A DNA stretch of 64,000 nucleotides from Bythopirellula goksoeyrii (GTDB taxonomy: Bacteria > Planctomycetota > Planctomycetia > Pirellulales > Lacipirellulaceae). The stretch lies in NCBI RefSeq assembly GCF_008065115.1, contig NZ_CP042913.1, positions 6,025,257 through 6,089,256 of the forward strand. The letters run 5' to 3'. This document shows positions 35,987 through 57,760 of this stretch, one piece after another (the stretch's first letter is position 1; each line of letters starts with the position of its first letter). Made by a program: the position numbers and the translations under genes. The notes below the pieces were generated by a model that did not search any database, had not been told where the DNA came from, and saw only the letters and a list, made by a program, of their open reading frames with translations.

Positions 35987-38900
35987 TCAAATGTCCCCGC
36001 CTACCCCTTTAAACTTCTCCACAAACGCAGCGACCTTCTGAAACACGCTCTGCTTCTTCGTCAGATACTCCGGATTAAGCGGACTCATTTTGGGAAGAAT
36101 GGCATTGAGCTCGGTGCCATTCTCGCTAGCAAACTCTCGCCGTAGTGATGTGCTGAGATACCGCTTGGCCGCGTCTATGTTGAGGTTTTCGTCAGCGATC
36201 AGCTCTCCAGCTTCTCGCTGTTGCTCGACCCGTGCAAAACCAAAAAAAGCTTCGATCACACCGGATTTGTCTGGGATTTCATCCAGTTTTGCTTGGTTAA
36301 TAAAGTCAACCACCAAACTTTCCTTGGCGCGATTGCCAACACTGGCACGAATCAGTCGACGCACTTCCTCAACCAAATTCGCTTTATTCTTGGTCTTCTT
36401 GTTGTGCTCGAAGATCAGCTCTAGGATGTAATCCAGATTGATCTCTTGCGACTTCAGCAAATCGACCTCGAACACCACCTCTGCCCAATCGACAGTCGAT
36501 TGCTCATTTTCATTGCTCGTTTTTTCACGCCGTAACCAGTCTCGAATGTCGTTGTACGTCGATCGGTAATCTTGAACCTTGCGATCAGGCGGTACGTCGA
36601 TGCTCTGCAACGGCTCCAGGTCTTCATCGCTTAGGTAATGCTCTTCCTTGAATGCTTCGACTTGCTCTTGATCATCGATGTCAATGTCTTTCAGGGCTTT
36701 CAGGCTTGCAAATTCATCGAAGTTTTGCAGGATATTTTCAACCCGTAAATACTCGCCGAACAGCTTCACGAAGTCTTTCCTGTCTTTCTCCCGAACGATA
36801 TCGTCCGGATTAGGAAATCGTTCTTCCAACTCTGCTACGACTTCCTTGTAGCCACGCCGGGCTTGGCCGGTGACGACATCAGTGAAGCCTTCCATGTATT
36901 CCTTGTAGCTCTTTTCAAGCACCACGTTCTTCGTGTTGCTGTCGCCAAAGAGCGTGATCGCATCGACGGTGGCCTTCTCTAAATCGCGGAAAGTAACAAC
37001 GTTTCCGAACGTCTTGGTGGCGTCATAAATGCGATTTGTTCGTGAAAACGCTTGAATAAGTCCGTGATAACGGAGGTTCTTGTCTACGAATAGCGTGTTT
37101 AGCGTCGGTGCATCGAAACCCGTTAGGAACATCCCCACCACGATCAGCAAATCGATGTCTTGCGACTTCACACGCTTGGCCAAGTCGCGATAGTAATTCT
37201 GAAAGCCGTTGCTATCTACGCTGAAGCTCGTTTTGAAGTAGGCGTTGTAGTCGGCAATCGCCGCGTCTAAGAACTCCTTCGCACTGCTGTTCATCGCCGA
37301 CACGTTGAAGCTCTCGTCCTGAATATCCCCCACAGCATCCTGCTCTTCGTTAGCGGCAAACGAAAAGATGGTGGCGATTTTCAGTGGTCTGTCACTATCA
37401 GCTTGAAGTTCGTTCAGCTTTTCGTAAAACAGCTTCGCGGCATCCACGCTGCTAACGGCGAACATCGCGTTGAAGCCGGTCCCGCTCGCCCGCAAGCGAT
37501 GCGTTTTCTGCCGGTAATGGGTCAGGATGTATTGCGAAATCTCTCGAATGCGATCCGAATGCAATAGAGCCTGACGGTTCTCGGCGGCGGTTAGTTTTTT
37601 CTCGTCTTGTTCAGTTTCAATATCCTTAAACTGAGGACGGACGTCGTTGTAATCCACTTTGAACTTGAGCACCTTCTCGTCGCGAATCGCGTCGGTGATC
37701 ACGTAGGAATGCAATTCGCGGCCAAACACGCTGGCGGTCGTTTCAGCGGAAAGGGCGTTCTGCGGAAAGATCGGGGTGCCAGTAAAGCCGAACTGATAAT
37801 ATCGCTTGAACTTCCTCTTGAGATTCTTTTGTGCTTCACCAAATTGACTGCGATGGCACTCGTCAAAGATAAAGACGACTTGCTTTTCGTAAATCGGCAG
37901 GTCGGATTCGCTCTTCATCAAGTTATTGAGCTTCTGAATCGTTGTCACGACGATCTTGTTGTCGTCCTTGCCCAAGTTGCGTTTGAGCCCTGCCGTGCTG
38001 TCGGAGCCGTTGACGCTGTCGGGAGAAAAACGCTGATACTCCTTCATCGTCTGGTAGTCCAGGTCTTTCCGGTCCACCACAAAAAACACTTTGTCGACAA
38101 AGTCCAGCTCCGTTGCCAATCGGGCCGCTTTGAAGCTTGTCAGCGTTTTGCCTGAACCGGTCGTATGCCAGACATAGCCCCCGCTTTCCGGCTTGCTCCA
38201 GCTTTTAGCAGTATACGAACTGTTGGTTTTCCACATGATCCGCTCGGTAGCGGCGATTTGGTAGGGCCGCATCACAAGCAGCGTGTTGCTGACATCAAAG
38301 ACCGAGTACTTCAGCAGTACCTCTAGCAACGTGTTCTTTTGAAAGAAGGTCGCGGTAAAATCCTTCAAATCCTTAAGCAGGCTATTATCTGCTTTCGCCC
38401 AGTTCATGGTGAAGTCAAAACTGTTCTTGTCGCGTTGCGTGGTGTTGGCGAAATAGCGTGTATCGGTGCCGTTGGAAATGACGAACAGCTGAAGAAACTT
38501 ATACAGAGAATGCTCGCTGTTAAAGCTCTCCTTGCTATAGCGATGCACCTGGTTAAATGCCTCGCGAATCGCCACGCCACGTTTCTTTAGCTCCACCTGC
38601 ACTAGGGGCAGCCCGTTTACCAGAATCGTGACGTCGTATCGATTGGCATGGCTGCCAGTCTGCTCGATCTGCTGGATCACTTGCAGCTTGTTGCGAGTCC
38701 GGTTCTTCTTATCCAGCAAGTAGATGTTTTGGATATGGCCATCGTCGAAGACGAAATCGTGGATATAGTCATCGTGGATTTTGCGAGTCTTGTCGACGAT
38801 GCTTTCGCTGGGCTTATCCAGATAGGTTTTCACGAACCGCTGCCATTCATCATCGGAGAGCTCCACGCCATTTAGTGCCTGCAGTTGAACTCGCACATTA

Positions 38901-39088
38901 GCAAGCAACGTCTCTTGAGATTTCAAGTCGGTCCGGAATTCATAGCCCTGGTTCTGTAAATCGACAATAAGCTCTCGTTCCAAGTCCGCTTCGCTTTGGT
39001 AGCTTTCGGCTGCCGTCCATTCCCGGGTGTATTTCTCCAGGATGATGAAGCTATTCGATTCGGCGATGGTTTTTGTCTGCTCAGCCAT
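35987..39088 (-). CDS. hsdR: Type I restriction enzyme, R subunit
   Basis: HsdR supplies DNA translocation and cleavage in the type I complex. The N-terminal nuclease of PD-(D/E)xK type has Asp152 ([10 protein letters not shown]) and VELKK (Glu166, Lys168). The SF2 motor follows with [11 protein letters not shown] (Walker A, about 309-317), [12 protein letters not shown] (about 407-416), GFTGTPIF and SRTNRIYD. At 1033 aa it has the usual type IC length. Its ATG overlaps the end of prrC by 8 bp. It is the last gene of hsdM-hsdS-prrC-hsdR and is followed by terminator hairpins. The frame is intact. Confidence 0.96.
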
Positions 39089-40265
39089 TGGGATGATCTT
39101 CCTCCAAAGCCATTCTGTACTTTTCTGGAAATACGTACTGCTTGTTTGCTGCGTCAGTCAGAAGGAATTTCAAGACCCGCTTGTCATCTTGCGATAGCTC
39201 GGACAGCTCATATCCCGAATGTTTCGAGTGGCTCGAAATATCGATAATACGTTTCAGATAAGGGTCGCTTGTTCCCTCAGCCGTCCTTGGAAGCAAGTCT
39301 GCCCAATCGTCATACCCAAGAAAGGTAGAAGTCTTTTCGAGGATGTTTCTCAAAAAATTGTAGTGGTACTTTTCAAAACCGTTTTGCTCCGAGGCGAGCC
39401 TAAGCTTCTCCAGCAAATGTAGATGATAAGAAAATGGGCTGTCAGTTCTCAGAGGTTCAAGAGAAAAAGTACCGTCTTCATTATATGTCAACCGATACTT
39501 GAGCCCCTTCTTAATTGCATTGAACAACACGTTAAAGAAAAGTGGATTGTGAGTCGTGATGACAAACTTCGGACCGTCTTGCGGAGACAATTTAATCAGG
39601 GCCGCTAATCGTTGCGCCAGCTCAATCAGGTGACTGTCGTCAAGCGAACTTACCGGGTCGTCAATAAATACATATTCCAAATTATCGAATTGATTGGTGC
39701 CGCGATCGCCAGCCTCCGGAACGCTTAGCACATCAACCACTTCTTCAAGTATTGTGTAAAAAACGCTCCAGACAAAAACACTCTCTTCGCCTTTGGAAAT
39801 CTTAATGCTCTCAGTGCCATCTTCATCGCCGGTTTCGATCGAGAAGGTCACATCTCTGATATGGTAAGTACGTCTGCCATCAACGACCCGATAATGTTGG
39901 TTGAAAGACGGTGTTAACTGTTTATTAGTCAGGCGTTGAAAGTTTGCGACAACATTTTGGTCTTGTCCCTGTTCTAGTAAAATCCAGTCGGTAAACGTAT
40001 TCGGCTGGATGCGTAATTTTTTCTCAATATCTTCCTCTAGGTCATTGTCCCAGTGGAACAGATCTTCGGTGAACGCGTTGTAGTAGAGGATCTTATCCCG
40101 CGAGAGTCCGGCTTCTTCCTCGTCGGTATCGTTTTTAGGGGCGATCAGGTCCTTAAACTCCCGTGACAAGCGGGTTTTGCCCGTTCCATTGAAGGCGTAG
40201 ATCAACTGCACCTTTTTATCGGCTTCCTTGAGCTGCTGTGCGATTTCTGTCAGGGTCTTGCTCAT
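39081..40265 (-). CDS. prrC: PrrC-type anticodon nuclease nested in the type I restriction operon
   Basis: E. coli PrrC is held silent by its EcoprrI restriction partner and cuts tRNA-Lys at the anticodon when a phage inhibits restriction. This 394-aa protein matches it in length and in layout. The ABC-type NTPase has [15 protein letters not shown] (Walker A, about 24-38), [13 protein letters not shown] (signature), [13 protein letters not shown] (Walker B, 198-210) and ITTHN (H-loop). The C-terminal nuclease part has [16 protein letters not shown], where Arg306 and Glu310 keep the Arg-x3-Glu spacing of the known catalytic pair, and SSHSKHS provides His346 or His349 as the third residue. It lies 1 bp after hsdS and overlaps hsdR by 8 bp. 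Confidence 0.9.
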
Positions 40266-40266
40266 T

Positions 40267-41451
40267 TTACGCTTCCGCCTCTTCGGGCTTAGGGAAGCTC
40301 AGCAGCAAATCGCAATAGTACTCGTACTGCTTCTGCCGCAATTCGATTTCGCGAGGTAAACCTTCGGTGATTGAATTGGTAAGGATGTCGAAATCATCAA
40401 GGACGGAAACGATACGATCTTGCTCCGGCTTTGGCGGAATTGGCACTAAGAAATCTTCCATCTGCTTCTTCGAAACAGCAGGAATTCCACCTTTTTGTTG
40501 ACTTCCTATCAGCTTTCGCTCTGATCGTTTCAAGAAATAGTAGACGAAGTTCCAGTTCATGTTCTGGCCATCTTCAACTCCAATTGAGTAGCAGCTGTTC
40601 CCGGCCCAATATGGACTTGAGATCCGATTCACAAACCCAGCGTTTGCCCCTCTGGCGCTTACGATGATCTTGTTTCCAGTATTGTTGTAATTCTCGTAGT
40701 AACCGGTCGGCGTCCGTCCTCCGTTGTAAACCGGATACTGAGCAGCGGCATCCTGTTTGTCTTTTCGCACAAACTCACCAATCGTGATCGTTGCTAATCT
40801 TCCAAGCGGTTTCCGTTCAACTTCGCCATCTGCAAAACTCAACAACTGATCGCGATAATAGTCGTATTGCTTCTTTCGGGCGGTTAGCTCGGCGGTTAGC
40901 TCGGCGGTTAGCTCGGCAAAGGTGTCCAAAATACGGACGATTTCGACCTGGATTTCAAGCGAGTTTCTCGGGTTCGATGGGCATGGAATGGGTATCTGGT
41001 AGCCCAGAATTGCCGTTTTGTTCCCTCGCGGCATCTTCGCGCCTTTTGCATGCTGCATGCTGTACGAGAAGAATTCGTTTGAAGACAACAGATAGTAGAG
41101 AAACTTTGAGTCAACAGTTTGTTTGAATTCATCTTGAATCCGGACAGCAAGGACATCTCCACTGCACCCACCTGAGTTGGTCGCCATCCACACTTTCTTC
41201 AGGTACGGACGGATGTTGCCGAGAAGGATGTCTCTTGGCTCATAAGCCGTCAAGCGGTTTGTGTTCGGCAGATAATTTGCGTCAACGCGCCCACCCTTGT
41301 CGGCGACGAGATTATCCACTCCCACAAACGAAGTCGCGTCGAGTTCAGCAGCATCTACTCGCGTCTGTGAGTACTCCGCCACCTCCATTAGTGGCTTCCA
41401 ATCCACATCAGCACCATCCAGCAGCTTGTTTAAAAAGGTCACCTTGCTCAC
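40267..41451 (-). CDS. hsdS: Type I restriction specificity subunit (type IC)
   Basis: HsdS chooses the bipartite DNA target. Two target-recognition domains (about residues 15-165 and 205-355) are each followed by a conserved helical spacer. The first ends with [20 protein letters not shown] and the second with [20 protein letters not shown], the half-repeat structure of type IC subunits. The central spacer holds a four-residue repeat, as in EcoR124I and EcoR124II, where repeat number sets the length of the gap in the target. The start is a GTG whose GTGA overlaps the hsdM stop. The recognition sequence itself cannot be predicted. Confidence 0.95.
40881..40916. repeat. Three 12-bp repeats in hsdS (TAEL-type spacer)
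   Basis: The plus strand reads CGGTTAGCTCGG three times in perfect tandem, coding for a Thr-Ala-Glu-Leu-type repeat in the spacer between the two recognition domains. Slippage by one unit keeps the frame and changes the spacer by four residues. Confidence 0.9.
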
Positions 41452-43025
41452 GCCTCGACCTCCTCTCCTTCGATCTCCGTCACAATCGAATCGATTTCCG
41501 AACGCAGCTTGTCGATCCTGGCCACGGTCGTTTTCAGCTCGGCGTTAAGTTTGACAATGTCCACCTTCTCGCGGGTATCCTCGGGTTCAACATAACTGCT
41601 GACCGACAGGTTGTAATCGTTGTCAGCGATCTTGTCCAAAGCGACAGATTGAGCGAAGTGATCGATGTTCGCCTTGGTGTCGAAGGCCTGCATAATGGCT
41701 TCGATATGCTGATCTGTGAGGACATTGGTATTCGTTTCTTTTTTAAAGTAGTCCTCACCGCTGGCGTCAATGAACTGAGTGTTCGTGTCGGTCTTGTGCT
41801 TGGACAGGAGCAGAATATTCACTGCGATGGTGGTGCCAAAAAACAGATTCGGGGCCAGTGAGATTACCGTTTCAACAAAATTATTGTCTACCAAATACTT
41901 CCGGATTTTCTGCTCGGCGCCACCTCGGTAGAAGATTCCTGGGAAGCAGACGATGGCCGCGCGACCTTTGCTAGACAGATAGCTCAGGGCATGAAGCACG
42001 AAGGCAAAATCTGCTTTGGATTTCGGGGCCAGCACTCCCGCCGGAGCGAAACGGTCGTCGTTGATGAGCGTAGGGTCGTCGCTGCCCTTCCATTTCACCG
42101 AGTACGGTGGATTGGAGACGATTGCATCGAACGGTGTTTCGTCGCTTAGTGCTGGGTCAATAAGCGTGTTGCCCAGTCGGATATTGAACTTGTCGTAGTT
42201 GATGTTGTGCAAGAACATGTTCATCCGAGCCAGGTTGTAGGTCGTGTGGTTTATCTCCTGACCGAAGAAGCCCTCTTCAATGATGTGGGCGTCAAAATGC
42301 TTCTTGGATTGCAGCAACAATGAACCAGAACCGCAGGCCGGGTCGTAAATCTTGTTGACTCTGGTCTGTTTGTGCATCGCCAGCATGGCAATCAGCTTGG
42401 ACACGTGCTGAGGCGTAAAGAACTCGCCCCCCGACTTGCCCGCGTTGGCCGCGTAGTTGGAGATCAGAAACTCGTAGGCATCGCCGAACAAATCGATTTG
42501 GTTGCCATTGAAGTCACCCAGGCTGAATTCGCCGAAATTCAAACCTGCGACCCCTTTCAGCACAGCCGCCAAGCGAGTGTTTTTGTCCGTGACTGTATTG
42601 CCCAGACGGTTGCTGGTTGTGTCAAAATCGGCGAAGAGTCCCTTGATGTCTGGCTCGGACGGGTATCCACTCGCCGAGGCTTCAATCGCGGTAAAGATGT
42701 TCGCCAGATCCGTGTTCAAGCTTTCGTTGGTGTTCGCCTCGTTGGCGATTTTGGAAAACAACTGGCTTGGGTAGATAAAGTAACCCTTAGTTTTGATGGC
42801 GTCGTCTTTGATCTCGGACGTGATCACGGAATCCTGGAGCGAGGCATAGTCGATGCTTTGGTCGCCTGCTTCGATGTACTGGGCAAAGTTCTCGCTGATA
42901 AAGCGATAGAACAAGGTGCCCAGGACATACTGTTTGAAGTCCCATCCATCCACAGCACCGCGAACGTCATTGGCGATTTGCCAGATTTGGCGTTGCAAGG
43001 CTGCTCGTTGTTGGCTTCCATTCAT
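41448..43025 (-). CDS. hsdM: Type I restriction-modification methyltransferase subunit
   Basis: HsdM transfers a methyl group from S-adenosylmethionine to adenine N6 in the HsdS-defined target, protecting host DNA and forming the core of the restriction complex. Motif I is [14 protein letters not shown] (228-234) and motif IV is [10 protein letters not shown] (NPPY at 305-308). The N-terminal helical domain (about 1-160) and a C-terminal helical region for HsdS contact are both present, giving 525 aa in total. An AAGGAGA ribosome-binding site precedes the ATG. It is the first gene of the operon and overlaps hsdS by 4 bp. Confidence 0.96.
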
Positions 43026-43852: not shown

Positions 43853-44680
43853 ATGAAGAAAGACGAAATAAAGAAGCTAATCGAGCAAGGCGTACGTGAG
43901 CTAAACGAGGCGCTGGCAATGGGAGACAGCGAACAGCTGAAGCAGTTCATGGCGGTAATGGCGAGGTTCCCCCGCTACAGCTTTAATAACTGCCTACTCA
44001 TTGCGATGCAGAAACCGGACGCGCAGATGGTGCAAGGCTTTCATGCCTGGAAGAAGATCGGACGCTGGGTAACAAAAGGCGAAAAAGGCATCGGCATCGT
44101 TGCACCAATGGTCTATCGCAACAAGGAGGAAGAATCTTCAGAAGACGGCGAAGAGCGGGCCCTGCGAGGGTTCAAGGTCGTGCACGTCTATGATGTAAGC
44201 CAGACTGAGGGCAAGGAGATGCCTGAGTTTGCCAGCGTCACCGGAGATGCTGGGCACTACATCGAAGCCGTAGAGCGAGTGATTCAAGCGAAAGGAATCG
44301 AGCTTGTTTACGAAGAGCTTGACTCCGGTGCTGATGGAGTATCTTGCAAGGGGAAGATCATCATCGACCCCAAGGTGGAAGGTGCCGAGCGATTCGCGGT
44401 GCTCACGCACGAGCTTGCACACGAGTTGCTGCATACGGACAAGTCGAAGCGATTGCAAACGACGAAGACTATCCGTGAAACGGAAGCAGAAGCAGTTGCT
44501 CACGTCGTCTGCCGAGCCGTGGGTTTAGACTCCACCACGCACAGTGCGGACTACATCCGGCTCTATAGCGGTGACATGGACGTGCTGGCTGGATCGCTTG
44601 ACGGAATCCAGAAGGCTGCTGCACAGATACTTGAGGCGTTGGAATCAGCTCAAGTAGCTGACGCAGAGGCTGCTGCGTGA
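43853..44680 (+). CDS. ArdC-like antirestriction protein (ssDNA-binding domain plus zincin)
   Basis: ArdC proteins, known from plasmids, protect incoming single-stranded DNA from host restriction. The N-terminal ssDNA-binding domain (about 10-115) shows RFPRYSFNNCLLIAMQKPD, FHAWKKIGRWVTKGEKGIGI and FKVVHVYDVSQTEG. The C-terminal metallopeptidase has THELAHELLHTD (HExxH, 186-190) and RETEAEAVAHVVC for the third zinc ligand. An AAGGAG site lies ahead of the ATG. The position beside a type I system fits a mobile element that must evade restriction when it moves. Confidence 0.85.
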   Translation: MKKDEIKKLIEQGVRELNEALAMGDSEQLKQFMAVMARFPRYSFNNCLLIAMQKPDAQMVQGFHAWKKIGRWVTKGEKGIGIVAPMVYRNKEEESSEDGEERALRGFKVVHVYDVSQTEGKEMPEFASVTGDAGHYIEAVERVIQAKGIELVYEELDSGADGVSCKGKIIIDPKVEGAERFAVLTHELAHELLHTDKSKRLQTTKTIRETEAEAVAHVVCRAVGLDSTTHSADYIRLYSGDMDVLAGSLDGIQKAAAQILEALESAQVADAEAAA

Positions 44681-44894
44681 GGCGTCTAAAGGCACTCACA
44701 GTGCGTTTGGTCACTGCAATGCTGTTTTCCGGCTTCATGCGGTGATCGACGCACTTTTTTTTGCTGGAATTGATACGCGTTGAAAGTACGCAGATAATGC
44801 TCGATACTCATTGGCATCGTCCCGCACCATGCACTGATGGATGAAACCATGAGGTGCTATTGCAGAAACCTAGAAATAACAAGAAGCAACCCAT

Positions 44895-47525
44895 ATGAGC
44901 CACTCTTCTCAGAACATATCTTCCGGCTGGCATGATCTATTACTCTCCTACAATCGCCAGCACATGCCAGATGTTAGACTGCAATCACGCCTGCAAGGTG
45001 AAGGCGAAGCTCGAAAGCTGCTTGAAGAAAAGCTTGGCTCATTCGACGAAGAGGACATTAGGGCTCTTCTCGCGGCCCTAAATGCCGACTACGGTGCGGA
45101 CAAGAAACGCGCCGACCGCTTCATGCCCGCGTTCTATGGACATCTTGCTAACCAGATTGCCCAGGTGCCCGATGCCTTTAATCAATGGATATCGAAGCTC
45201 TGGAATGCGACCGATGAGAACCGCGATGAGATTCTCAATGAACTATGGAAGCAAGATGAGATATCTGGAGCAGGCACTTCCCTTCCCTCAGCCATTCTCT
45301 ATTTGCGCGACCCGGAGCGATTCGCCGTTTGGATTCCCGCTATGGAGCACGGGCTGAAGATCGTGCAACCACAGATTAAATTCAAGAAGCGACGAACAGC
45401 CGAAGGTTACCTAACATATAACGAAGGTGTTCAGGGCGTCAGAGAGCAGCTTGGCCTTACTCCGCAGAGTATGGACGTCGTGCTTTCGTTAGCCGCAAAA
45501 GAAGCCGATGTTGTGGCAGCCGATGATTTCCAGTCTCTGTTTAAAGATTTCGTCGCGTCGTTTGTTGACTCTAAAGAGGGGCAGTCGCATCTCCGACGAT
45601 ACCCATCTCAGCGAAAAGAAGCTGAACAGAGTTACAAGAAAATCTGCGAGGCCCACAGTCGCGGTGAAGATGTCACCGATGCAGTACTCTGCGAACTGCT
45701 TCCATATGCCGATACGAAGGGCAATCGCGAGCGAGGAGTCTGGATACACATCGCTCCTTCGATCACGAAAGACATTAGACAGTGGTTTGAAGGGGCCAAA
45801 TGGACAGATCCTAAAGACTGGCCAGAGGTCGCAACGACCATCCTTGAGTTTGTTCGCCGGTCAATTGAGTCACCAATGAAGCTAGCAGAGAACTGCGAGT
45901 GGTTTGCAGAAAACGTCCCTTCTAAAGGGTTCCAAATGGGCATGCTCACGCCCATCTTGAATGCGCTCGATTCAGCCCACTTCAATATCATCAACAACAA
46001 GCCTCGCCAGACGCTCAATCACATTACAGGCTCCGATTACTCAAACAGCCTGCAAGATTACCCAAAGCTAAATGCCGTGCATTTCGCACTCCAAGAGAAG
46101 CATAAGGCGCTATTCGACGAAGTCGGTCAAAATGACGCACTTGCAGGCGATGTGCTCGATATGTTCAGCCACTGGCTGGTAGCCGTTCGCAAGTTCGACT
46201 TCAAGAAGTCGACCGTCTACAAGATCTCCCCAGGAGCTGAGGCCTGGAACTGGGTGAATTGTCGCGACGAAGGCTACATCACAATCGGTTGGGACGAATT
46301 GGGAGATCTGACTGGCATACCCAGAGAAGAATTCAATAATCGCCGGGCGGCTTTACTAACTGAACACGAGGACTGGACGAAGCGGGGGCTCAGCCAAGTC
46401 TGGACATTCTCGCGCATTCGAGAAGGTGACCGGATTATTGCAAACAAGGGAAAGTCAGAGATTCTCGGCTATGGCACCGTTATTGGCCCCTACTACTACC
46501 TGCCCAACACGAAGCATGGCCATCGTCTTCCTGTCATGTGGGACGATGTAACGGCACGCAAAGTCAATGAACCTAGCTGGTCAGGCACCGTCCAGAAAGT
46601 AAGTGCCGAACGATTCGAGCAATTGAGAGACGCCGAACCTCTTGGCGATCCCTCAGATCCCCCCGCACCGGCAGACCCTAAGCCTTCGCCGCTCAATCCG
46701 GATTACTCGATTGACCAGTGCTCGGCTGACACGAGTTTCACTGTAGCGCAGTTAGAACGTTGGCTGAGTGCCCTTGATCGTAAAAAGCAGGCCGTGTTCT
46801 ACGGTCCTCCGGGAACCGGAAAGACTTATCTCGCAGATAAGTTAGCTCGACACCTGATTGGCGGTACGGATGGTTTTTTCAAGATTGTCCAGTTCCACCC
46901 CGAATACGCCTACCAAGATTTCATGCAAGGAATTCGGCCTCAATTGACTGATGGTGCTCAACTTTCCTACGCAAACGTAGCGGGACTATTCAAAGACTTC
47001 TGCTCTGAAGCCGCACAGCGAAAAGGTCGATGTGTTTTGATCATTGACGAAATCAACCGCGCCAATCTCTCTCGCGTGTTCGGTGAGCTGATGTACTTGC
47101 TGGAATACCGTGACCAAGAGATTGATCTTGCAGGCGGTGGGGTGTTTCGTATTCCCAGAAATGTTCGCATCATCGGCACGATGAATACGGCAGACCGTTC
47201 AATTGCGCTGGTAGACTACGCTCTAAGACGTCGATTCGCATTTATTCGCATGTCACCAGACTATGACGTGCTGGCCCGCGCGCACACCGATTCTGGTTTC
47301 GATGTTGCCGGGCTCGTGGCAGTGCTCAAAGAGCTTAACCAGGAGATCGGCGATCCGCACTACGAGATCGGCATCTCTTTCTTTTTAGTCGATAACCTTG
47401 AGGAGCAGCTCGAAGATATTTGGGTCATGGAGATCGTACCCTACTTGGAGGAGTACTTTTTTGACAATCTACCCAAGGCAGACCAGTTCCGCTGGGAAAA
47501 GGTAGGGGATCGTATCTGCGAATGA
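44895..47525 (+). CDS. mcrB: McrB-type restriction GTPase with EVE-like domain
   Basis: McrB hexamers bind modified DNA and use GTP to translocate, recruiting the McrC nuclease. The 876-aa protein has a helical N-terminal part (1-430), an EVE/PUA-like domain (about 445-575: YITIGWDELGDLTG, TFSRIREGDRIIANKGKSEI, LGYGTVIGPYYY), then an AAA+ GTPase with YGPPGTGKTYLADKLA (637-644), LIIDEINRANLSRVFGEL and the McrB signature GTMNTADRSIALVDYALR. The EVE-like part is probably the sensor for a modified base such as methylcytosine; this is inferred from the fold. It overlaps mcrC by 4 bp. Confidence 0.92.
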   Translation: MSHSSQNISSGWHDLLLSYNRQHMPDVRLQSRLQGEGEARKLLEEKLGSFDEEDIRALLAALNADYGADKKRADRFMPAFYGHLANQIAQVPDAFNQWISKLWNATDENRDEILNELWKQDEISGAGTSLPSAILYLRDPERFAVWIPAMEHGLKIVQPQIKFKKRRTAEGYLTYNEGVQGVREQLGLTPQSMDVVLSLAAKEADVVAADDFQSLFKDFVASFVDSKEGQSHLRRYPSQRKEAEQSYKKICEAHSRGEDVTDAVLCELLPYADTKGNRERGVWIHIAPSITKDIRQWFEGAKWTDPKDWPEVATTILEFVRRSIESPMKLAENCEWFAENVPSKGFQMGMLTPILNALDSAHFNIINNKPRQTLNHITGSDYSNSLQDYPKLNAVHFALQEKHKALFDEVGQNDALAGDVLDMFSHWLVAVRKFDFKKSTVYKISPGAEAWNWVNCRDEGYITIGWDELGDLTGIPREEFNNRRAALLTEHEDWTKRGLSQVWTFSRIREGDRIIANKGKSEILGYGTVIGPYYYLPNTKHGHRLPVMWDDVTARKVNEPSWSGTVQKVSAERFEQLRDAEPLGDPSDPPAPADPKPSPLNPDYSIDQCSADTSFTVAQLERWLSALDRKKQAVFYGPPGTGKTYLADKLARHLIGGTDGFFKIVQFHPEYAYQDFMQGIRPQLTDGAQLSYANVAGLFKDFCSEAAQRKGRCVLIIDEINRANLSRVFGELMYLLEYRDQEIDLAGGGVFRIPRNVRIIGTMNTADRSIALVDYALRRRFAFIRMSPDYDVLARAHTDSGFDVAGLVAVLKELNQEIGDPHYEIGISFFLVDNLEEQLEDIWVMEIVPYLEEYFFDNLPKADQFRWEKVGDRICE

Positions 47526-48730
47526 CCCTATCAGTTCTCCATCTCACGGAACATAAGACGACTCGCTTCGCGCCAGATGAGCTTCCGGCTTCATTGGGAG
47601 AGCAGCTATGGACTCAGTATAGCGATAGGATTCTCGTCGAGCCCCCCTCTTTCAAGACGGGCAACCATTGGTTGTTGACACCCCAAGGTTGGGCTGGCCA
47701 CATTCCAATCGATCATGACCACCGCGTGTTCATCGAGCCAAAAGTTGAGATCAGTAGTCTCTTCCAAATGCTGGAGTATGCCTACAGACTTACTTTTCTT
47801 GCACCTGGCGAAATGGTTGGTGCCAGCAGCATGCTTGAATTCTATGAGCGTTTAGCAAAGGTACTTGCACTTAGAATACTTGATCGAAGCCGAAAAGGAT
47901 TTCACCGCGAGTATGTCGCTCGTTCCAACAAGCTTCCTTATCTGCGCGGCAAGCTAAACTTGGATTCAATGCTTAGGACTCCAACAGAAGTCTCGCTAGA
48001 CTGTAGCTATCACGAGAACACGGCGGATATCGAAGACAATCAGATCCTGGCCTGGACTCTCTACTGCATCGCGAGACACGGCTTTGGCAGGTCTGAAGTA
48101 GCCCAACTCGTCAGGCGAGCTTTTCGCGCGGTGCACAGTGCAGCGAGCTTGAATCCCTGTTCACCTTCGGTCTGCACGAACAGGGCATATACGAGATTAA
48201 ACAATGATTACTCGCCCATGCACGCTCTCTGCCGATTTTTTCTTGAACATGGCGGCCCTGGCCATCAGCAGGGCAGTCGAAGCATGCTGCCCTTTCTTGT
48301 GAACATGCCCCGACTCTATGAGCTGTTCGTCGCTGAATGGCTCCGCATGCACCTTCCGGACAACTTGACGATTTCTGAGCAGTACGGAGTTCCTCTCGGG
48401 CATCAGAACGCAGTCCGTTTCGAGATCGATCTACTAATCTGCGACCGCCACACAGGGCAACCGCTTGTGTTACTCGATACGAAGTACAAGACCCCGAACT
48501 CACCGAGCGCAAGCGATTTGGAGCAAGTGATTGCCTACGCCAAAGCGATCAGTTGTGAACGAGCGATGCTCGTATATCCTCAAGAGCTGCCCACTCCCTT
48601 TGACCATACCGTGGGAGGCGACATCCACGTCTGGACAGCAGCTTTTGCACTCACAGGAGATATCGACGAAAATGGCCGCAAGTTTTTGGTCTCGCTACTA
48701 GCCCAACTTGAGCGATCAACGCCTACCTAA
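47522..48730 (+). CDS. mcrC: McrC-type nuclease subunit
   Basis: The 402-aa protein has the N-terminal McrC domain that contacts the McrB ring (about 1-150) and a C-terminal PD-(D/E)xK nuclease: AVRFEIDLLICD (Asp303) and LVLLDTKYKTP (Asp319, Lys321). McrC cuts DNA once McrB has assembled and hydrolysed GTP. The ATGA overlap with mcrB indicates coupled translation and fixed stoichiometry. The next gene runs the other way, so mcrBC is a self-contained operon. Confidence 0.92.
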   Translation: MTLSVLHLTEHKTTRFAPDELPASLGEQLWTQYSDRILVEPPSFKTGNHWLLTPQGWAGHIPIDHDHRVFIEPKVEISSLFQMLEYAYRLTFLAPGEMVGASSMLEFYERLAKVLALRILDRSRKGFHREYVARSNKLPYLRGKLNLDSMLRTPTEVSLDCSYHENTADIEDNQILAWTLYCIARHGFGRSEVAQLVRRAFRAVHSAASLNPCSPSVCTNRAYTRLNNDYSPMHALCRFFLEHGGPGHQQGSRSMLPFLVNMPRLYELFVAEWLRMHLPDNLTISEQYGVPLGHQNAVRFEIDLLICDRHTGQPLVLLDTKYKTPNSPSASDLEQVIAYAKAISCERAMLVYPQELPTPFDHTVGGDIHVWTAAFALTGDIDENGRKFLVSLLAQLERSTPT

Positions 48731-48849
48731 GCAGGTAATGAGTTAGCTAGCCGATTCCAAAGCCCCATCAATACCACTTTGCGGGTGACTCTTGGCAACA
48801 TGGCCCACGTGCATGCCGCAGCGGCACTGTCCTGCGTGCTCACTCTAGC

Positions 48850-51312
48850 TTAGAAGTCGTCTTCGATCTCGACTTCCGTTTCGACCTCGGTCACCACTTG
48901 GCTCTCGATTGGCGTATAGAGGTCGATCTCGGCGTCATCGGTTTCCAGCGATACGACCAATGCATACCTAGCCGAACGGCTCCATCGTTCTAGGTGAGGA
49001 CGCTCTCGCCACCAGCCGGTAACAGGATGAACCGCTATCACTCCACAAGCTGCTAGTTCGCTCGCCGTTCCCGTCCAGGTATCAGAATGTACCGAACCAC
49101 GCGTTCTAAGGTTCTTACCAAGCTGCCAACTACGGTCCTCAGCAACTGAATCAGGGCGTTCCTCTCGATCTTCCCAGGCGTCCTTGCTCAGACGTTGATC
49201 GAACTGCTCTACGGTCTCAACCGGTCGCTTCACGTCAAAACGCAGGCCGTGAGATTGATAACGATGTTTCGTTTGCCAGCCGCGTCGACCAGGACTCGGT
49301 TCAATGAAGTAGGATAAAGTCACTCGCATCTTGATCGGCGTCTCTCCGAGGCTCTCCAGGACTTCCTTCGGCCAAGGTAGCGCGTGCATTCGCATGTCCT
49401 TCGTTTTAATCTTCCCATCAACTCGGTCGAATGGCTGCAACGAATCTTGCACAATCATCGTGGCGGCATTGGACACGCTCCAGAGAGCCCGGTCGATATT
49501 CGGTACGCCGTACCCATAACAACGGATTCGCTTGTGACGCTCTCTGTGAGGAAACTCTTCAAGCATTGCGCCCGTCCACTCTGCCGAGTGAACCATCAAT
49601 GCTCGCACTGTCTCTGGCCAGAGGTGCGGGTACTTGGCATTGACCATCGCCGCAAACCGAGCTGCTTGCGCTGTGGCTCCGCTCGTGTCGCCACTTGTCG
49701 TCAGCAACGCTCCTGTAGGACTCAATCGTGTCGTTAGTAAAGCCAGATCATCAATGGAATCAGCATGCCCGCTGCCCGATTCGCGGGCGCTGTTGCCGCC
49801 CTCCATGACGATGTCGGGCTTCAGTGGCCATTCCTTCTTTTCCCAGATCACGGAAGTGCGACTGCAAGGACTTAGCAATCCTGCTTTTGCAACAGGCTCC
49901 CAATCTACGTATTCCTGCGAACGAATAACGCAAAGTTCGGTGTAGGCCCCCACTGTCACAACGTTCCAGGCATGCGAAGGGTCTTCAACACCTTCTAGGT
50001 GGTTACTTGCCGGATATTCGTGACGAGTTTCGGAAGGAGTGTTTCCAGCGGAAACAAACATCAGACGTTGATTGGAATCCAAAGCTCCGCTGCAAAGCTG
50101 ATCAACAGAAGCCGACCAGGAGGTTGGCAAGCCTTCGTCGCACTTTTCAGCGGTTACCGCCAGGCAGATTGCGCGATTGCGTGTCGGTGACTGCACTTCC
50201 GCGCGCGCAACTGCTTCGCTCGTAATTGCTCCGTAGTGTTCTGGGCTGTTTGAACCTTCATCAGGGAGGATTTTCACCGATTCCAGGCGATGAGAAAGTT
50301 GCACCGGTTCTTCGCTTCCAAGGACTTCAGTCAAGCAGCCATACAAGGCTAGGCCTGCCATTTCCGTGCCGTGTCCCTTGCGATCAGCGGGCGTCCAGTT
50401 TGGGTCAACAGTCAGCAAATGCTCTTCGTCGAGTGCGATCTCAAGCAACGGATGGCTGCGATTCACGCCTGTATCGAGTAGGCATACCGCTGGCGCGTCC
50501 TCATTGGGCAGCGTGATCCGTGCCAACGCGGATCGAATCCTTTCCGCTTGTTCCTTTGGTGTTAATTCGACGAACTCGGTCGGCACCTTTGCCGCCGCCC
50601 GTAGCTCCGCCAGCAAGTCAAACAAATTGTGAAACTGCTCCCATTGCTCTGCACTCGCTTCGGCGAGAAGCACGATCCGCTCAGGGAACCGCACCAAGCG
50701 TTGACTGACCGTAATGCCAATCCGTTGCGCCTCGGCTTGGAATTTCTCTACGACTCCCGTAACCTCGCCGTCGTTTCGCAGCCAGATCTCCCACCAAATT
50801 CTATCCGTCTGAGTAGGGTATGGCTTCGAGTCCGTCCAGAACGAACGAAGCGTAGCCTGTCGCACGAAACTAATACTCTCTACCAACGCCTGATTCTTAG
50901 GAGCGCCGCTATCTGCGTCTTCGTCGATATAACGTTCAAAGATTCGTAGGAACATCGCCGCCTTGTTCGTCGGCACGAACACAACGGCGAACATCTTACC
51001 GCTATCTTCACGGACGTTGACCAGCTCAATACCGCTTCGCTCCCGTTCGAGGCTTTCGATCTTGAGAGCAAACCCTGGGTCGCTCTCAAACTCTAATGTG
51101 ATGCCTTCGGGGCGTTCGGATTCGTCTTCCTCTTCGGTTTCGGAAGAGGAATCGGCTACTGCTGTGCGAATGCTACTGACAATACCTGTGCCGTGGCTGC
51201 GACGGTCATCTCGTGGAGGCGTTTTGAACGGCGCGCTACCACCCCCGCTAGTAGACGTGTAGGTCTTCGTTTCTCCCGTGTCGCGGAGGACAAGATGCGG
51301 ATGCTGAGTCAT
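48850..51312 (-). CDS. S8 (subtilisin-like) serine peptidase, partner of an AAA ATPase
   Basis: The 820-aa protein has a long N-terminal part without signal peptide (1-265), then an S8 peptidase domain with the complete triad: AVCLLDTGVNRSHPLL (Asp280), ADRKGHGTEMAGLALYG (His314), oxyanion MFVSAGNTPSE (Asn424) and GDTSGATAQAARFAAM (Ser544). It is therefore probably an active cytoplasmic protease. It starts 15 bp after the AAA ATPase gene. AAA ATPase/S8 peptidase pairs recur in predicted phage-defence islands; I recall the names IteA/IteS for such a pair in reference annotation, from memory. Target and trigger are unknown. Confidence 0.88.
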   Translation of the reverse strand: MTQHPHLVLRDTGETKTYTSTSGGGSAPFKTPPRDDRRSHGTGIVSSIRTAVADSSSETEEEDESERPEGITLEFESDPGFALKIESLERERSGIELVNVREDSGKMFAVVFVPTNKAAMFLRIFERYIDEDADSGAPKNQALVESISFVRQATLRSFWTDSKPYPTQTDRIWWEIWLRNDGEVTGVVEKFQAEAQRIGITVSQRLVRFPERIVLLAEASAEQWEQFHNLFDLLAELRAAAKVPTEFVELTPKEQAERIRSALARITLPNEDAPAVCLLDTGVNRSHPLLEIALDEEHLLTVDPNWTPADRKGHGTEMAGLALYGCLTEVLGSEEPVQLSHRLESVKILPDEGSNSPEHYGAITSEAVARAEVQSPTRNRAICLAVTAEKCDEGLPTSWSASVDQLCSGALDSNQRLMFVSAGNTPSETRHEYPASNHLEGVEDPSHAWNVVTVGAYTELCVIRSQEYVDWEPVAKAGLLSPCSRTSVIWEKKEWPLKPDIVMEGGNSARESGSGHADSIDDLALLTTRLSPTGALLTTSGDTSGATAQAARFAAMVNAKYPHLWPETVRALMVHSAEWTGAMLEEFPHRERHKRIRCYGYGVPNIDRALWSVSNAATMIVQDSLQPFDRVDGKIKTKDMRMHALPWPKEVLESLGETPIKMRVTLSYFIEPSPGRRGWQTKHRYQSHGLRFDVKRPVETVEQFDQRLSKDAWEDREERPDSVAEDRSWQLGKNLRTRGSVHSDTWTGTASELAACGVIAVHPVTGWWRERPHLERWSRSARYALVVSLETDDAEIDLYTPIESQVVTEVETEVEIEDDF

Positions 51313-51327
51313 GCTTTCTCACACACG

Positions 51328-52314
51328 TTAGAGCCTTATAGTTCCGCCTCGACTCCGCTCAGAAAAAGCCTGAACGAGCAACTGTGTTGTCACTTTGCTC
51401 TTGCCCGCAAGAAGACAATCTTTCGCGGCGTCATCGCACGCTCGTGAGATTTCCGCATGACTAAGTCCCGCAGAAACGTCTTTGACTTTGGTCCACGCGA
51501 TTCGCCCTAGGCCAAAGGAGCTAAGTCTATTCTCGATGAGTGCCTTAACCTGCTCTGGGGTCGGGATGACGTATTCAATCACATCGTCGAAACGACGAAA
51601 CAACGCGTCGTCGAGCATCTCTACATAATTCGTGGCAGCAACCACGAGGCTGTCTGAATCGTCTTGTTCGAGAAACTGGAGGAACGAATTCAAGACTCGA
51701 CGAATCTCGCCTACGTCGTTTTTCGCTCCTCGATTCGAGCCAATCGCATCGAACTCGTCGAACAGGTACACGCCGCGAGTTTCGTGCATCGACTCAAAAA
51801 TTACGTGAAGCTTTGCAGCCGTCTCCCCCATGAACTTGGTAATGAGGCCATGTAGCTGCACACTAAACAGTGGGAGCTTAAGTTCCCCTGCTAAGGCCGA
51901 GGCCGTCATCGTCTTTCCGCAACCAGGTGGACCAACGAGTAAGAGCTTCCGTCGTGCTGACAAACTGTGTTCGCGGAGACGATTCTGGTGCCGATACTCT
52001 CTAAGTACTCGCTTGAGTCGCGGCTCCACTTCCTCGCTCAAGACCATTTCACTCAGTAGGGTCTTCGGGTATGAAACCGTCAGTAGCCCAGCAAGTTCGC
52101 CTGATGGGCGAGCGATGGGTACTGGCCTTGTTAGGGTGCCGGATGACTGCTGCTTCTTGATCTCGTCGACCAGATCTCGCAAGTCTTTAGCAAGCTTCTC
52201 CTTCCCGGTGCGCGCAGCCTGAGACGCAATCTGCATTGCGACGGATACAAAATGCTCCCCGTCGCCCGCAGAAAAGCTCCTCACCAATGCTTTTACTTGC
52301 TCACCTGTTGCCAT
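51328..52314 (-). CDS. AAA ATPase paired with the S8 peptidase
   Basis: The 328-aa protein has a helical N-terminal domain (1-75) followed by one classical AAA module: LLLVGPPGCGKTMTASALAG (Walker A, 128-135), RGVYLFDEFDAIGSNRG (Walker B), VVAATNYVEMLDDALFRRFD with Arg-finger residues 240-241, and a C-terminal lid. The pattern is close to the AAA proteins that unfold or remodel a partner. It lies immediately upstream of the S8 peptidase gene on the same strand with 15 bp between them, so the two surely act together, either as a regulated protease or with the ATPase as sensor. Confidence 0.88.
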   Translation of the reverse strand: MATGEQVKALVRSFSAGDGEHFVSVAMQIASQAARTGKEKLAKDLRDLVDEIKKQQSSGTLTRPVPIARPSGELAGLLTVSYPKTLLSEMVLSEEVEPRLKRVLREYRHQNRLREHSLSARRKLLLVGPPGCGKTMTASALAGELKLPLFSVQLHGLITKFMGETAAKLHVIFESMHETRGVYLFDEFDAIGSNRGAKNDVGEIRRVLNSFLQFLEQDDSDSLVVAATNYVEMLDDALFRRFDDVIEYVIPTPEQVKALIENRLSSFGLGRIAWTKVKDVSAGLSHAEISRACDDAAKDCLLAGKSKVTTQLLVQAFSERSRGGTIRL

Positions 52315-52636
52315 AAGTCGCGTCCTGATTACTCAAGAATTAGCGTGCTCTGTTGAGGTCTTGGACGCTAATCCTTCCTGCTCTGTATCGTAATTGATCC
52401 TTACCCGCCAGTCACTTAGGTCAAATCGGCATTTTGGCCAGATCAGTGAACAATTGCCGGCACAGTCCGCCAACTCTCTCTGTTTTGACGCTAGCGGGCT
52501 CCTCACGGTCTAGAGATCCGCTGTTGAACGCTACGCTGCGTGCCCAGCTTGGTCCCAGCTTGGTCCCTGAACTCCTGAAATCCGCTTGTGGCGTAGTTGG
52601 GCGTTTCCCTGCGGGTCGGGCTCGCTCCAGGCTCCG
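52315..52636. other. Intergenic stretch with a short tandem repeat
   Basis: No gene is visible. An 11-bp unit CCCAGCTTGGT occurs twice in tandem (52543-52564). The promoter of the AAA-S8 pair should lie in the left part, next to 52314. Confidence 0.4.
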
Positions 52637-53524
52637 CTAACGCTTCGGTCTCATACGAGACTGCGTTGCACCCTCCACATCCCTAACGCGGCTCTCATTG
52701 CTCTCGGCATTCCGTTCGGCGAAGGGATGAATCTGAACTCGCTTCAGGTTGAGCACCTCGTAGGGCACTGGCAGTTTGACGCCAGCAATCTTTCGCACTT
52801 TGTTGATGTCGCGTACAAGTGCCAGCAGCTGTTGCCGCACTGGTGCATACGGTTGGTAGGAAATTGCGTCCAACTCATGGGCCAGATTCTGCACGGAGCG
52901 ATGCGGCGCAATGTTCAGAAAATACGCCCGCAATCGACGGTAGGTCCGCTTTTCGATTTCCACGCGAGAGCGCCAGGCATGGTCGCGCTCGCCGCGAGCA
53001 GGGCGCTCCCCTCGCCCACGGAGTTCTTTGTAGAGCGTTTTGTCCTCCTCGGATTTTCTCGCCCAGTGGCCGCGCCGGTAGCTCACGGCGTAGCCTTCAA
53101 ACAATCTTGAATCAGCATGCTTCTTTTTCTTTCTGCGTAGACGGGCGACTTTAGGGATGAGAATCGGCACCTTCCGCGCGTCGCGGATCAAATCCTCCTC
53201 ACGCTGTCTGAATTCATGCAGGCCCTGACTGCACATCAGGAGAAAGAAACTCTCGTGCCGAATGTACTGCATGTTTGCCAGTCCAGAACGCTTTCGACTC
53301 GCCCGTTCCCGTTCGGTAACATCGATTTGGTAGCGAGCGATTAGTTTGCTGTCGATTTCTTCCGGATCTTTTTCCTCGGGAATCATCCCGGTGACGTAAT
53401 ACCAGTAGCCGTGTCGCAAATAGCTGACGGCGACCTGCTGTACGAGGCCATCAATACTTGTCGCTTGGCAGCGATAAGCCTTCGGCCTCTGCAAACTAGC
53501 CGGTCCCCTGCTCAGAGAGCACAA
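52637..53524 (-). CDS. Uncharacterised basic protein upstream of the AAA-S8 pair
   Basis: About 295 aa, rich in Arg and Lys. A conserved-looking core reads LVQQVAVSYLRHGYWYYVTG, then DSKLIARYQIDVTERERASR and NMQYIRHESFFLLMCSQG, and later VEIEKRTYRRLRAYFLNIAP and PYAPVRQQLLALVRDINKVR. I recall this pattern from uncharacterised proteins on mobile DNA of planctomycetes but know no function. The true start is uncertain: the longest frame begins with a TTG and there is no good ATG before residue 46. It lies on the same strand as the AAA-S8 pair but 322 bp away, so membership of that system is possible, not shown. Confidence 0.55.
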   Translation of the reverse strand: MCSLSRGPASLQRPKAYRCQATSIDGLVQQVAVSYLRHGYWYYVTGMIPEEKDPEEIDSKLIARYQIDVTERERASRKRSGLANMQYIRHESFFLLMCSQGLHEFRQREEDLIRDARKVPILIPKVARLRRKKKKHADSRLFEGYAVSYRRGHWARKSEEDKTLYKELRGRGERPARGERDHAWRSRVEIEKRTYRRLRAYFLNIAPHRSVQNLAHELDAISYQPYAPVRQQLLALVRDINKVRKIAGVKLPVPYEVLNLKRVQIHPFAERNAESNESRVRDVEGATQSRMRPKR

Positions 53525-56771: not shown

Positions 56772-56844
56772 ATCCTATTACCAAAAATCAACAACACTTG
56801 TTGTTGTAGTTTAGAGTTTTACTACAAGAGTTAACTCGGCCTTT

Positions 56845-56998
56845 TTATCCATGCTTTCGGCAGCTTACCCACTGAAAACGTGTTTCATTTCACAGTAATC
56901 CGCCATTCTTTGGTGTTTCGTCTCACGGTAAAACGTGTTTCGTTTCACGGCCCAAAGATGTTTCGATTCACGGTAAAACATGTCTCATTTCACGGTCC
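56845..56998. repeat. Iteron array and DnaA-like box: putative plasmid origin
   Basis: Five copies of a TGTTTCRTTTCACGGTAA-like 18-mer start at 56881, 56914, 56936, 56959 and 56981. Four are 22-23 bp apart, about two helical turns, and the first is 33 bp from the second. A DnaA-like box TTATCCATG lies at 56845-56853, and the stretch next to repA is AT-rich with an AACAAC/GTTGTT inverted repeat. This is the usual structure of an iteron-controlled origin. Confidence 0.8.
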
Positions 56999-57178
56999 CC
57001 AATTGAGGTCCTATAGCGTAGCGAAATACGTCATCACTGCGGCCATTTCCTGCCGAGCATTAGTGTTAGATTTTGAGCGAAAGAATTCGTTGACGAATCG
57101 AGTTGGTGGGCGGTAGTCTGGATGTCGCTACAACATTCCAAAGACCGCGCGACTCGTTTCGCCTGGTTCCGCAAAAAG

Positions 57179-57204
57179 ACCGACTCGCCAAAGTCGGTTT
57201 TTTT
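57179..57204 (+). terminator. Rho-independent terminator
   Basis: ACCGACT (57179-57185) and AGTCGGT (57192-57198) form a 7-bp stem, followed by a run of T to 57204. It separates the origin from the repeat-rich region ahead of parA. Confidence 0.7.
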
Positions 57205-57329
57205 GTGCCTAAAATCTAACCCCCTCACCCACTCCACACCACAAGTAGCCCCTAGCGCTTTAAGCGCTTTGAACCAACTCAACATTCTCAGTACCGCCGA
57301 GTTCTGACAATTGATTTTCTTTTCCGGCA

Positions 57330-57720
57330 AGCATGCAGGCCAGCAAGCATGTCAGCATGCTTGCAAGCTATCCTGCGGGCTGGCAACTGACCGGCCACTA
57401 ATTTCCCTACCCTCTTTCTCACCAACTCCCCGTAGGCATTCCTTCTTGCTACTTGCTACTTGCAAGCTGGCCAGCATGTCAGCCTGCAAGCATGATTGCT
57501 GGTTGGCAGGCCTGCGGGTTGCGCAGACGGTTGGCTTGCTTCCTGCGTTGCAAGCCTACAGGTCAGCAAGCAAGTTTGCTGTGCGGCAAGAAAACACACC
57601 AGCATGTCGGCTGCGCAGCATGATTGCAGGCAGGCCGTATTGCCTGCACTACAGCAAACAATATTGCTGGCCAGCCCGTCAGCTGCGTGACAATATGCGC
57701 AGCCATCTTGCGTGAAATAT
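57330..57720. other. Repeat-rich non-coding region, candidate partition site
   Basis: The stretch is full of AGCATG, GCAAGC and GGCCAGC words and their complements. An 11-base core AGCATGTCAGC occurs at 57346-57356 and 57473-57483, with variants at 57601-57611 and 57673-57683, at spacings of 127, 128 and 72 bp. It lies immediately upstream of parA, where small ParA (type Ib) systems keep their centromere. An open frame through it codes for a Cys-rich sequence I consider accidental. Confidence 0.5.
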
Positions 57721-57760
57721 TACTTGCCAACTTTGGTGCAACTACTTTACGGTTTCTTTG

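Follow-up and report, generated by a model that had tools for sequence, protein, structure and literature searches.

Anticodon nucleases of the PrrC family have been described as partners of type I restriction-modification enzymes. In Escherichia coli (EcoprrI, the prr locus), PrrC is freed when restriction is inhibited, a step that involves dTTP and the hydrolysis of GTP, and its catalytic triad cuts tRNALys, as passages of a review relate (PMC3014915). A second example is PrrC170 from Klebsiella quasipneumoniae, which is encoded in an operon ordered HsdR-HsdS-PrrC-HsdM, is 35% identical to EcoPrrC and is reported to target tRNALys and to block T1 and T7 (PMC11555353). RloC likewise combines an ABC head with an Arg-x3-Glu...His nuclease; it is about twice as long as PrrC and carries a coiled coil and a CXXC zinc hook. 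In the portions of the 2008 survey that deal with size and linkage, RloC proteins span 658-897 amino acids and are linked to type I or III restriction-modification in 8 of 73 cases, while PrrC, with two dozen orthologues counted at that time, spans 341-416 amino acids (PMC2610378).

The window analysed here is a stretch of 64,000 nucleotides from the planctomycete Bythopirellula goksoeyrii. It contains a prrC gene with an ATG start codon (39081..40265, reverse strand), whose 394-residue product is predicted to consist of an ABC-ATPase and a C-terminal anticodon-nuclease domain. The PADLOC PrrC profile (PDLC02360) matches the protein with 451.1 bits (E 7e-136), a score that excludes chance, and Pfam AAA_13 does so with 55.6 bits (cut-off 36). 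As stand-ins for E. coli PrrC, two IncY plasmid loci annotated as 'anticodon nuclease' were used (L004 and L005). In the 396-residue PrrC of L004, R320, E324, H356, D222 and D287 fall exactly at the E. coli residue numbers given in the published passages (PMC2610378, PMC3014915). Both prr operons lie near genes for a terminase, a late promoter-activating protein and Phd/Doc, neighbours that suggest phage-plasmids.

Alignment with E. coli PrrC locates every motif that a preliminary description of this DNA had reported, each on the reverse strand: Walker A (AFNGTGKT, residues 24-31, 40173..40196), a degenerate ABC signature (KISKGEES, residues 155-162, 39780..39803), a 13-residue Walker B/D-loop stretch (residues 198-210, 39636..39674) and the H-loop (ITTHNP, residues 236-241, 39543..39560) with H239 as its linchpin. 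The Arg and Glu in Arg-x3-Glu spacing and the nearby His noted in that description share alignment columns with the E. coli triad. The predicted catalytic residues are Arg306 (39348..39350), Glu310 (39336..39338) and His346 (39228..39230), equivalent to E. coli Arg320, Glu324 and His356, with a Glu-His spacing of 36 rather than the 32 of E. coli, four residues more. The possibility, raised at the same time, that the triad is missing or the C-terminal part unrelated to PrrC is not borne out: the triad aligns, and identity of the C-terminal part to that of another PrrC, from the alphaproteobacterial locus L010, reaches 76%.

The gene is the third of four in the order hsdM-hsdS-prrC-hsdR, all on the reverse strand. 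The 525-residue HsdM (41448..43025) matches TIGR00497 with 643.6 bits. HsdS (394 residues, GTG start; 40267..41451) matches Pfam PF01420 (Methylase_S) in two stretches and the PADLOC Specificity_I profile with 384.3 bits. HsdR (1033 residues; 35987..39088) matches TIGR00348 with 676.7 bits and contains the Pfam domains HSDR_N, SWI2_SNF2 and EcoR124_C, the last with 228.6 bits. The TIGR00497 match in HsdM and the EcoR124_C domain in HsdR fit a type IC assignment. The gene coordinates bear out the reported position of prrC between hsdS and hsdR: hsdM and hsdS overlap by 4 bp, hsdS and prrC are 1 bp apart, and prrC and hsdR overlap by 8 bp (-4, +1, -8). The reported correspondence with the E. coli prr locus also stands, as the two plasmid loci share this order, the 1-bp gap and the 8-bp overlap, in addition to the ABC motifs, the triad and the Asp287 equivalent. 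With the profile match and full-length hsdM, hsdS and hsdR, these features sustain both the observation and the core interpretation of the preliminary description, that of a complete Hsd-PrrC system, and on sequence grounds the gene is assigned as a PrrC ortholog in an intact type IC operon. It is very improbable that it represents a decayed or inactive remnant, given the complete frame, the presence of the tested motifs, the full-length hsd genes and the overlapping junctions.

A self-regulated nuclease of the RloC type, placed in an hsd operon by chance, would share some of these features. The AAA_13 match, weak matches to the PDC-S06 profile and a Rad50-like head fold lean that way; a search of the PDB with the window PrrC as a single sequence gave 0 matches, and a 39-row PrrC profile gave two weak ones (E 0.07-0.1), to 5da9/5dac, which are Rad50. 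Against this, the window protein, with 394 residues, falls within the published PrrC range and far below that of RloC, the PrrC profile is far ahead (451 vs 50 bits), and the protein contains no cysteine at all, which rules out a CXXC zinc hook and agrees with the absence of the zinc-hook insert in PrrC. An RloC-type enzyme is thus the most remote of the alternatives considered here.

The window PrrC is most likely a latent tRNALys anticodon nuclease held by HsdMSR, by analogy with the described systems. The type IC HsdMSR enzyme would restrict unmodified DNA and would keep PrrC in a latent complex. An infecting element that inhibits or disturbs the restriction enzyme would then switch PrrC on, by way of nucleotide binding and the ABC-ATPase part, and the triad of the activated protein would cut tRNALys at the wobble base. 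Latency, trigger and cleavage of tRNALys are each modelled on E. coli PrrC and Klebsiella PrrC170.

The tRNALys(UUU) of the host has the anticodon loop CUUUUAA (CTTTTAA in the DNA), and a tRNALys(CUU) is also present. The tRNALys of E. coli has the same anticodon loop as the former. Elsewhere in the host genome, ARAGORN finds 19 tRNA genes in a dense array on one strand (G000 C1:4816756-4818946, L155:4757-6947). One of these genes is a second tRNALys(UUU), which differs in its body and anticodon stem; for another the anticodon call is an odd four bases long. The array resembles those found in mobile elements. Such an array could in principle buffer anticodon nucleases.

The residues expected to recognize the tRNA lie in a putative loop, RTDSPFSY (residues 273-280, 39426..39449, reverse strand), which is two residues shorter than the corresponding part of the E. 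coli peptide 284-294. A PrrC-family nuclease whose exchanged C-terminal module confers another specificity might act on a target other than tRNALys, or not on tRNALys only. The two missing residues and several changed ones in the window loop would be in keeping with this, as would a statement in passages of a review that substrates may vary since the recognition sequence varies (PMC3014915). On the other hand, the window loop retains the equivalents of D287, the residue in contact with the wobble base in E. coli, and of S288, F292 and Y294. PrrC170 is reported to target tRNALys at its low identity to the E. coli protein (PMC11555353), and the loop of L006, a locus with the PrrC170 gene order and an inferred equivalence, is shortened at the same place. 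A different or additional target is therefore considered unlikely, if the least unlikely of the alternatives, and tRNALys remains the preferred one. EcoPrrC and PrrC170, both studied by experiment and reported to target tRNALys, may bracket the window protein, a loose bracket because the Asp287 equivalent is Glu in L120 and Lys in L121, which appear to represent the PrrC170 side.

These two loci and L006 belong to a second class of PrrC proteins (L006:1-9720, L120:2875-11446, L121:2695-9950) that are 34-36% identical to the window PrrC. Their genes are ordered hsdS-prrC-hsdM, with hsdR on the hsdS side, and the HsdR of L120 contains EcoR124_C. The class falls outside the older hsdM-S-prrC-R picture, and the three loci appear to represent PrrC170, judging from gene order and level of identity. 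Like the window protein, PrrC170 is a PrrC associated with a type I restriction-modification system, with a different gene order. The Asp287 equivalent of L006 is Asp, and the recognition loops of the class differ further.

The prr operon is flanked by genes of other kinds. An ArdC-like gene with an ArdcN domain (43853..44680, forward strand; Pfam PF08401, 47.8 bits, cut-off 22.6) is the divergent neighbour of hsdM. At none of the 85 other loci was a blastp match to it found (E<=1e-5) in flanks of up to 6.5-8 kb, less on short contigs. On this count the neighbouring ArdC seems unlikely to be a built-in trigger of PrrC; the gene looks like cargo of a plasmid-like element, possibly antirestriction cargo. 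Further along the window are an AAA_5 (McrB-like) gene and a gene for an McrBC component (44895-48730), a subtilase gene beside an AAA ATPase gene on the same strand that may form an ATPase-protease pair (48850-52314), a RepA-like replication initiator (55299-56771) and a ParA-like gene (57758-58450). Judged by the ArdC-like, McrB-like, McrBC, RepA-like and ParA-like genes (43853-58450), an integrated plasmid-like element appears to carry the prr operon along with a second restriction system.

The host genome consists of one contig of 6.47 Mb and encodes one PrrC. Its planctomycete character, which had been surmised from the sequence, is apparent from 13 matches to PSD1 (PF07587), two of them in one frame, against 0 in 14 control genomes, and the planctomycete Rubripirellula obstinata belongs to the same order. 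Of 396 genomes of that order, drawn from a larger group, 6 have a PrrC-profile match at E<=1e-20, the window's genome being one of the six.

Two adjectives of the preliminary description, that PrrC forms a 'small' family and that the window protein is a 'distant' member, do not hold. Contigs from the genomes of 84,980 species gave at least 591 pattern matches, and at least 570 genome loci encode a relative (tblastn E<=1e-3), some of which may not be PrrC proper. The window PrrC is 50-55% identical to that of the E. coli plasmid locus L004, depending on the alignment. Relatives were also matched in 113 of 72,556 plasmid records (tblastn; 105 over at least 80% of the query), the best being pZYMOP02 of Zymomonas mobilis subsp. 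pomaceae, with 70.4% identity over 99% of the query; the same plasmid (L002:1-2746) also carries a DRT3 reverse-transcriptase defence pair. Among 50,697 phage records, tblastn found no relative. For further analysis the best 80 of the at least 570 genome loci were kept, a biased sample; together with the window, four of five plasmid loci, L116 and L117 they make up 87 aligned PrrC rows. The Arg-Glu-His triad, Phe292 and Tyr294 are present in all 87, and 86 have the Asp287 equivalent. A loop of the E. coli type, GDSN[KQ]xFSY, occurs in 14 rows, and in the remaining 73, the window included, the loop is two residues shorter. An HsdR match lies beside prrC at 79 of the 80 best genome loci, the exception (L036) being a 3.2-kb contig. 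The gap between hsdS and prrC is 1 bp at 54 of 86 loci, and prrC and hsdR overlap by 8 bp at 19 of 87. As a gene, then, the window prrC is ordinary, one more PrrC. What is notable about it is a history that, as far as sequences tell, is not shared with its own HsdM and HsdR.

The restriction genes have close relatives within the order. Five other genomes encode HsdR proteins 87-91% identical to that of the window: R. obstinata (L087, also L115), L116, L117, L118 and L119. The window groups with these five planctomycete operons both in the HsdR tree (80 rows, SH-aLRT 100) and in the HsdM tree (79 rows, SH-aLRT 99). In the PrrC tree (87 rows), in contrast, the window lies inside an alphaproteobacterial clade (100/100), L087 and L116 join Oxalobacteraceae and Thiobacillus (100/99), and L117 is found in a mixed clade with the E. 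coli plasmid PrrCs (100/100). The C-terminal module appears alphaproteobacterial in type, in a planctomycete host. The six operons of the planctomycete clade carry prrC genes of three lineages or none at all; no prrC was found in L118 and L119, where hsdS and hsdR are 149 and 947 bp apart. In L119 a Fic/DOC gene separates hsdM from hsdS (L119:7117-8232), and a sub-threshold IS200-like ORF lies between hsdS and hsdR (L119:4478-5035). In another genome (G374 C198; L101 and L109), an hsdR 81-85% identical to the window's is matched as two pieces, of which one contains an internal TGA, and is apparently broken.

Pairwise identities show the same discordance. The operon of R. obstinata is 86% identical to the window's in HsdM, 90% in HsdR and 59% in HsdS; its PrrC is only 56% identical, and its prrC and hsdR overlap by 4 bp. 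The closest PrrCs among the compared loci, 69-73% identical, are those of pZYMOP02 and of the alphaproteobacterial prr operons (L002, L009-L013), which share with the window the 8-bp overlap and similar first residues of HsdR, while their HsdM (75-77%) and HsdR (78-79%) fall short of the planctomycete values (84-89% and 87-90%). AU tests, with groups chosen after the identities had been seen and with quick LG+G4 trees for HsdR and HsdM, rejected a PrrC clade of the window with L087, L116 and L117 (p 6.8e-6), a PrrC clade of these three planctomycetes without the window (p 2.8e-5), and, for HsdR (p 4.6e-7) as well as HsdM (p 7e-4), a clade of the window with seven alphaproteobacteria. For the C-terminal module alone (residues 221-394), grouping of the window with the three planctomycetes was rejected with p 3e-72.

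The boundaries of the discordant segment show in a scan of operon positions where the window matches one or the other of two candidate parents. For the parent pair L087/L010, planctomycete-like and alphaproteobacterial-like sites in PrrC number 49:44 in residues 1-125, 29:46 in residues 126-220 and 39:133 in residues 221-394; in HsdR the counts are 1:8 in residues 1-10 and 520:194 in the rest. In line with this, the alignment of the HsdR N-terminus has a 10-residue stretch of alphaproteobacterial type and a 14-residue stretch of planctomycete type, so the window hsdR belongs to the planctomycete clade except for about its first 10 codons. The best alphaproteobacterial-like stretches for the four parent pairs scanned were 39947-39068, 39843-39075, 40227-39075 and 39942-39074 (permutation p<=0.0005 each). 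Together with trees of the C-terminal part, they delimit a putative segment of alphaproteobacterial affinity, from about residue 107 of prrC to the first hsdR codons (39068..39947, reverse strand), with an uncertain left end. For residues 1-125 of PrrC, neither the alphaproteobacterial (p 0.36) nor the planctomycete grouping (p 0.44) was rejected. A quick tree of residues 1-220 places the window with the seven alphaproteobacteria (93, unstarred), and the planctomycete grouping again goes unrejected (p 0.505). Both stretches fit both origins; what was swapped may be the entire gene or its C-terminal part only, and the data do not establish the window PrrC as a chimera whose N-terminal part is of planctomycete origin. 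The effector half, from about residue 107-141 to the first hsdR codons, appears to differ in ancestry from hsdM and hsdR; recombination probably brought it into a planctomycete operon from a prr operon of alphaproteobacterial type.

Comparison of near-identical operons suggests that such replacement is not peculiar to the window. In the clearest case, L116 and L117 are 96% identical in HsdR and 93% in HsdM; their PrrC proteins are 72% identical over residues 1-220 and 47% from residue 221 to the end. In 60-bp bins of DNA, identity is 87 and 90% at the 3' end of hsdS and 92% at the start of hsdR, with 27-77% in prrC and 35-48% in its last 7 of 21 bins, the last third of the gene. The target-recognition stretches of hsdS, lying between conserved blocks, show 17-52%. 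Of the 135 operon pairs, not independent of one another, whose HsdR proteins share 85% identity or more, 43 have C-terminal modules less than 60% identical.

Old paralogy followed by differential loss, or unequal rates of evolution, might also produce a PrrC history at odds with that of Hsd. Deep PrrC lineages do coexist within the same phyla, and PrrC evolves faster than HsdR (mean distance 0.39 vs 0.22). These accounts nevertheless meet HsdR proteins that are 96% identical beside C-terminal modules that are 47% identical, with edges near the gene ends, as well as pairs of the opposite kind, such as L016 and L028 (C-terminal module 91%, HsdR 80%). The occurrence of both types of pair cannot readily be explained by rates alone, and paralogy needs several copies at some time, while the search of the window's genome turned up a single prrC. 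Both accounts are accordingly held to be improbable, and recombination of prrC remains the preferred explanation.

The family as a whole was compared in 72 operons whose HsdM, HsdR and PrrC all satisfied length filters, which removed 15 of the 87 PrrC rows. Spearman correlation of pairwise distances is 0.66 between HsdM and HsdR. With HsdM, the correlation of PrrC is 0.43 for residues 1-70, 0.61 for 71-140, 0.44 for 141-220, 0.20 for 221-300 and 0.12 for 301-378; between the last two segments it is 0.71. From about residue 221, correlation with HsdM in sliding windows drops to 0.13-0.23. Control windows of 60 columns gave 0.13-0.56 (median 0.39) for HsdR against HsdM and 0.28-0.56 for HsdM against HsdR; because HsdR windows reach 0.13, single PrrC windows overlap the controls. 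Between PrrC residues 1-125 and those past 140, the correlation with HsdM differs by 0.35 (bootstrap 0.17-0.49), and when the latter are cut to equal length they give a mean of 0.26 (maximum 0.42) against 0.63 for residues 1-125.

Quartet agreement follows the same gradient, with 0.90 between HsdM and HsdR, 0.67-0.69 for PrrC 1-220 with Hsd and 0.56-0.57 for PrrC 221-394 with Hsd. Control blocks of 169 columns agree at 0.64-0.87 (HsdR against HsdM, six blocks) and 0.70-0.81 (HsdM against HsdR, three blocks). Short segments are noisy: between the two halves of a single PrrC module, agreement is only 0.65 (C-terminal) or 0.63 (N-terminal). Residues 1-220 fall below eight of the nine Hsd blocks in agreement with the Hsd trees and so may be exchanged too. 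Two other tests did not discriminate. The nearest neighbour of the C-terminal module matches that of HsdR in 26 of the 72 operons, compared with 31 for PrrC 1-220 and 24-42 for HsdR blocks of the same size, so that the C-terminal module is not set apart. The class of junction overlap (-8, -4 or -14, in 37 of 72 operons), taken as a tracer of the C-terminal module, associates alike with all four sequences. By distance correlation and quartets, residues 1-220 thus appear to track HsdM and HsdR better than residues 221-394, the part assigned to tRNA recognition and nuclease action, and with the discordant lineages this makes it seem that prrC, above all its effector part, has been exchanged among type IC operons. 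The route seems to run through the conserved 3' end of hsdS and 5' end of hsdR, much as for the recognition domains of hsdS. No report of effector-module exchange in near-identical type IC operons was found in the open-licence literature, a scope that leaves room for an earlier description.

Taken together, the locus is very probably a two-layer phage defence in which HsdMSR holds a latent PrrC, with an effector half of probable foreign ancestry and apparent module exchange across the family. In the evolutionary reading that the pattern suggests, it is the nuclease part that changes hands, the ABC part being fitted to its Hsd partner. It is a more tentative idea, rather less than an even prospect, that the space between hsdS and hsdR serves as an exchangeable effector slot, where nuclease modules differing in tRNA preference or in resistance to phage countermeasures swap while the ABC part stays fitted to Hsd. 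A functional reason is speculative; exchange could bring a changed tRNA preference or help the nuclease to evade tRNA repair by the phage or decoy tRNAs.

Near-identical HsdM and HsdR proteins accompanied by PrrC nuclease modules of three lineages, or by none, constitute a natural experiment. With this set of operons, variation of PrrC substrates with the recognition sequence becomes directly testable using natural proteins, and the operon relatives suggest which half of PrrC fits the restriction enzyme. If the hsdS-hsdR interval is indeed such a slot, the operon would vary both the DNA that it attacks, through the hsdS domains, and the tRNA that it cuts, through the prrC module.
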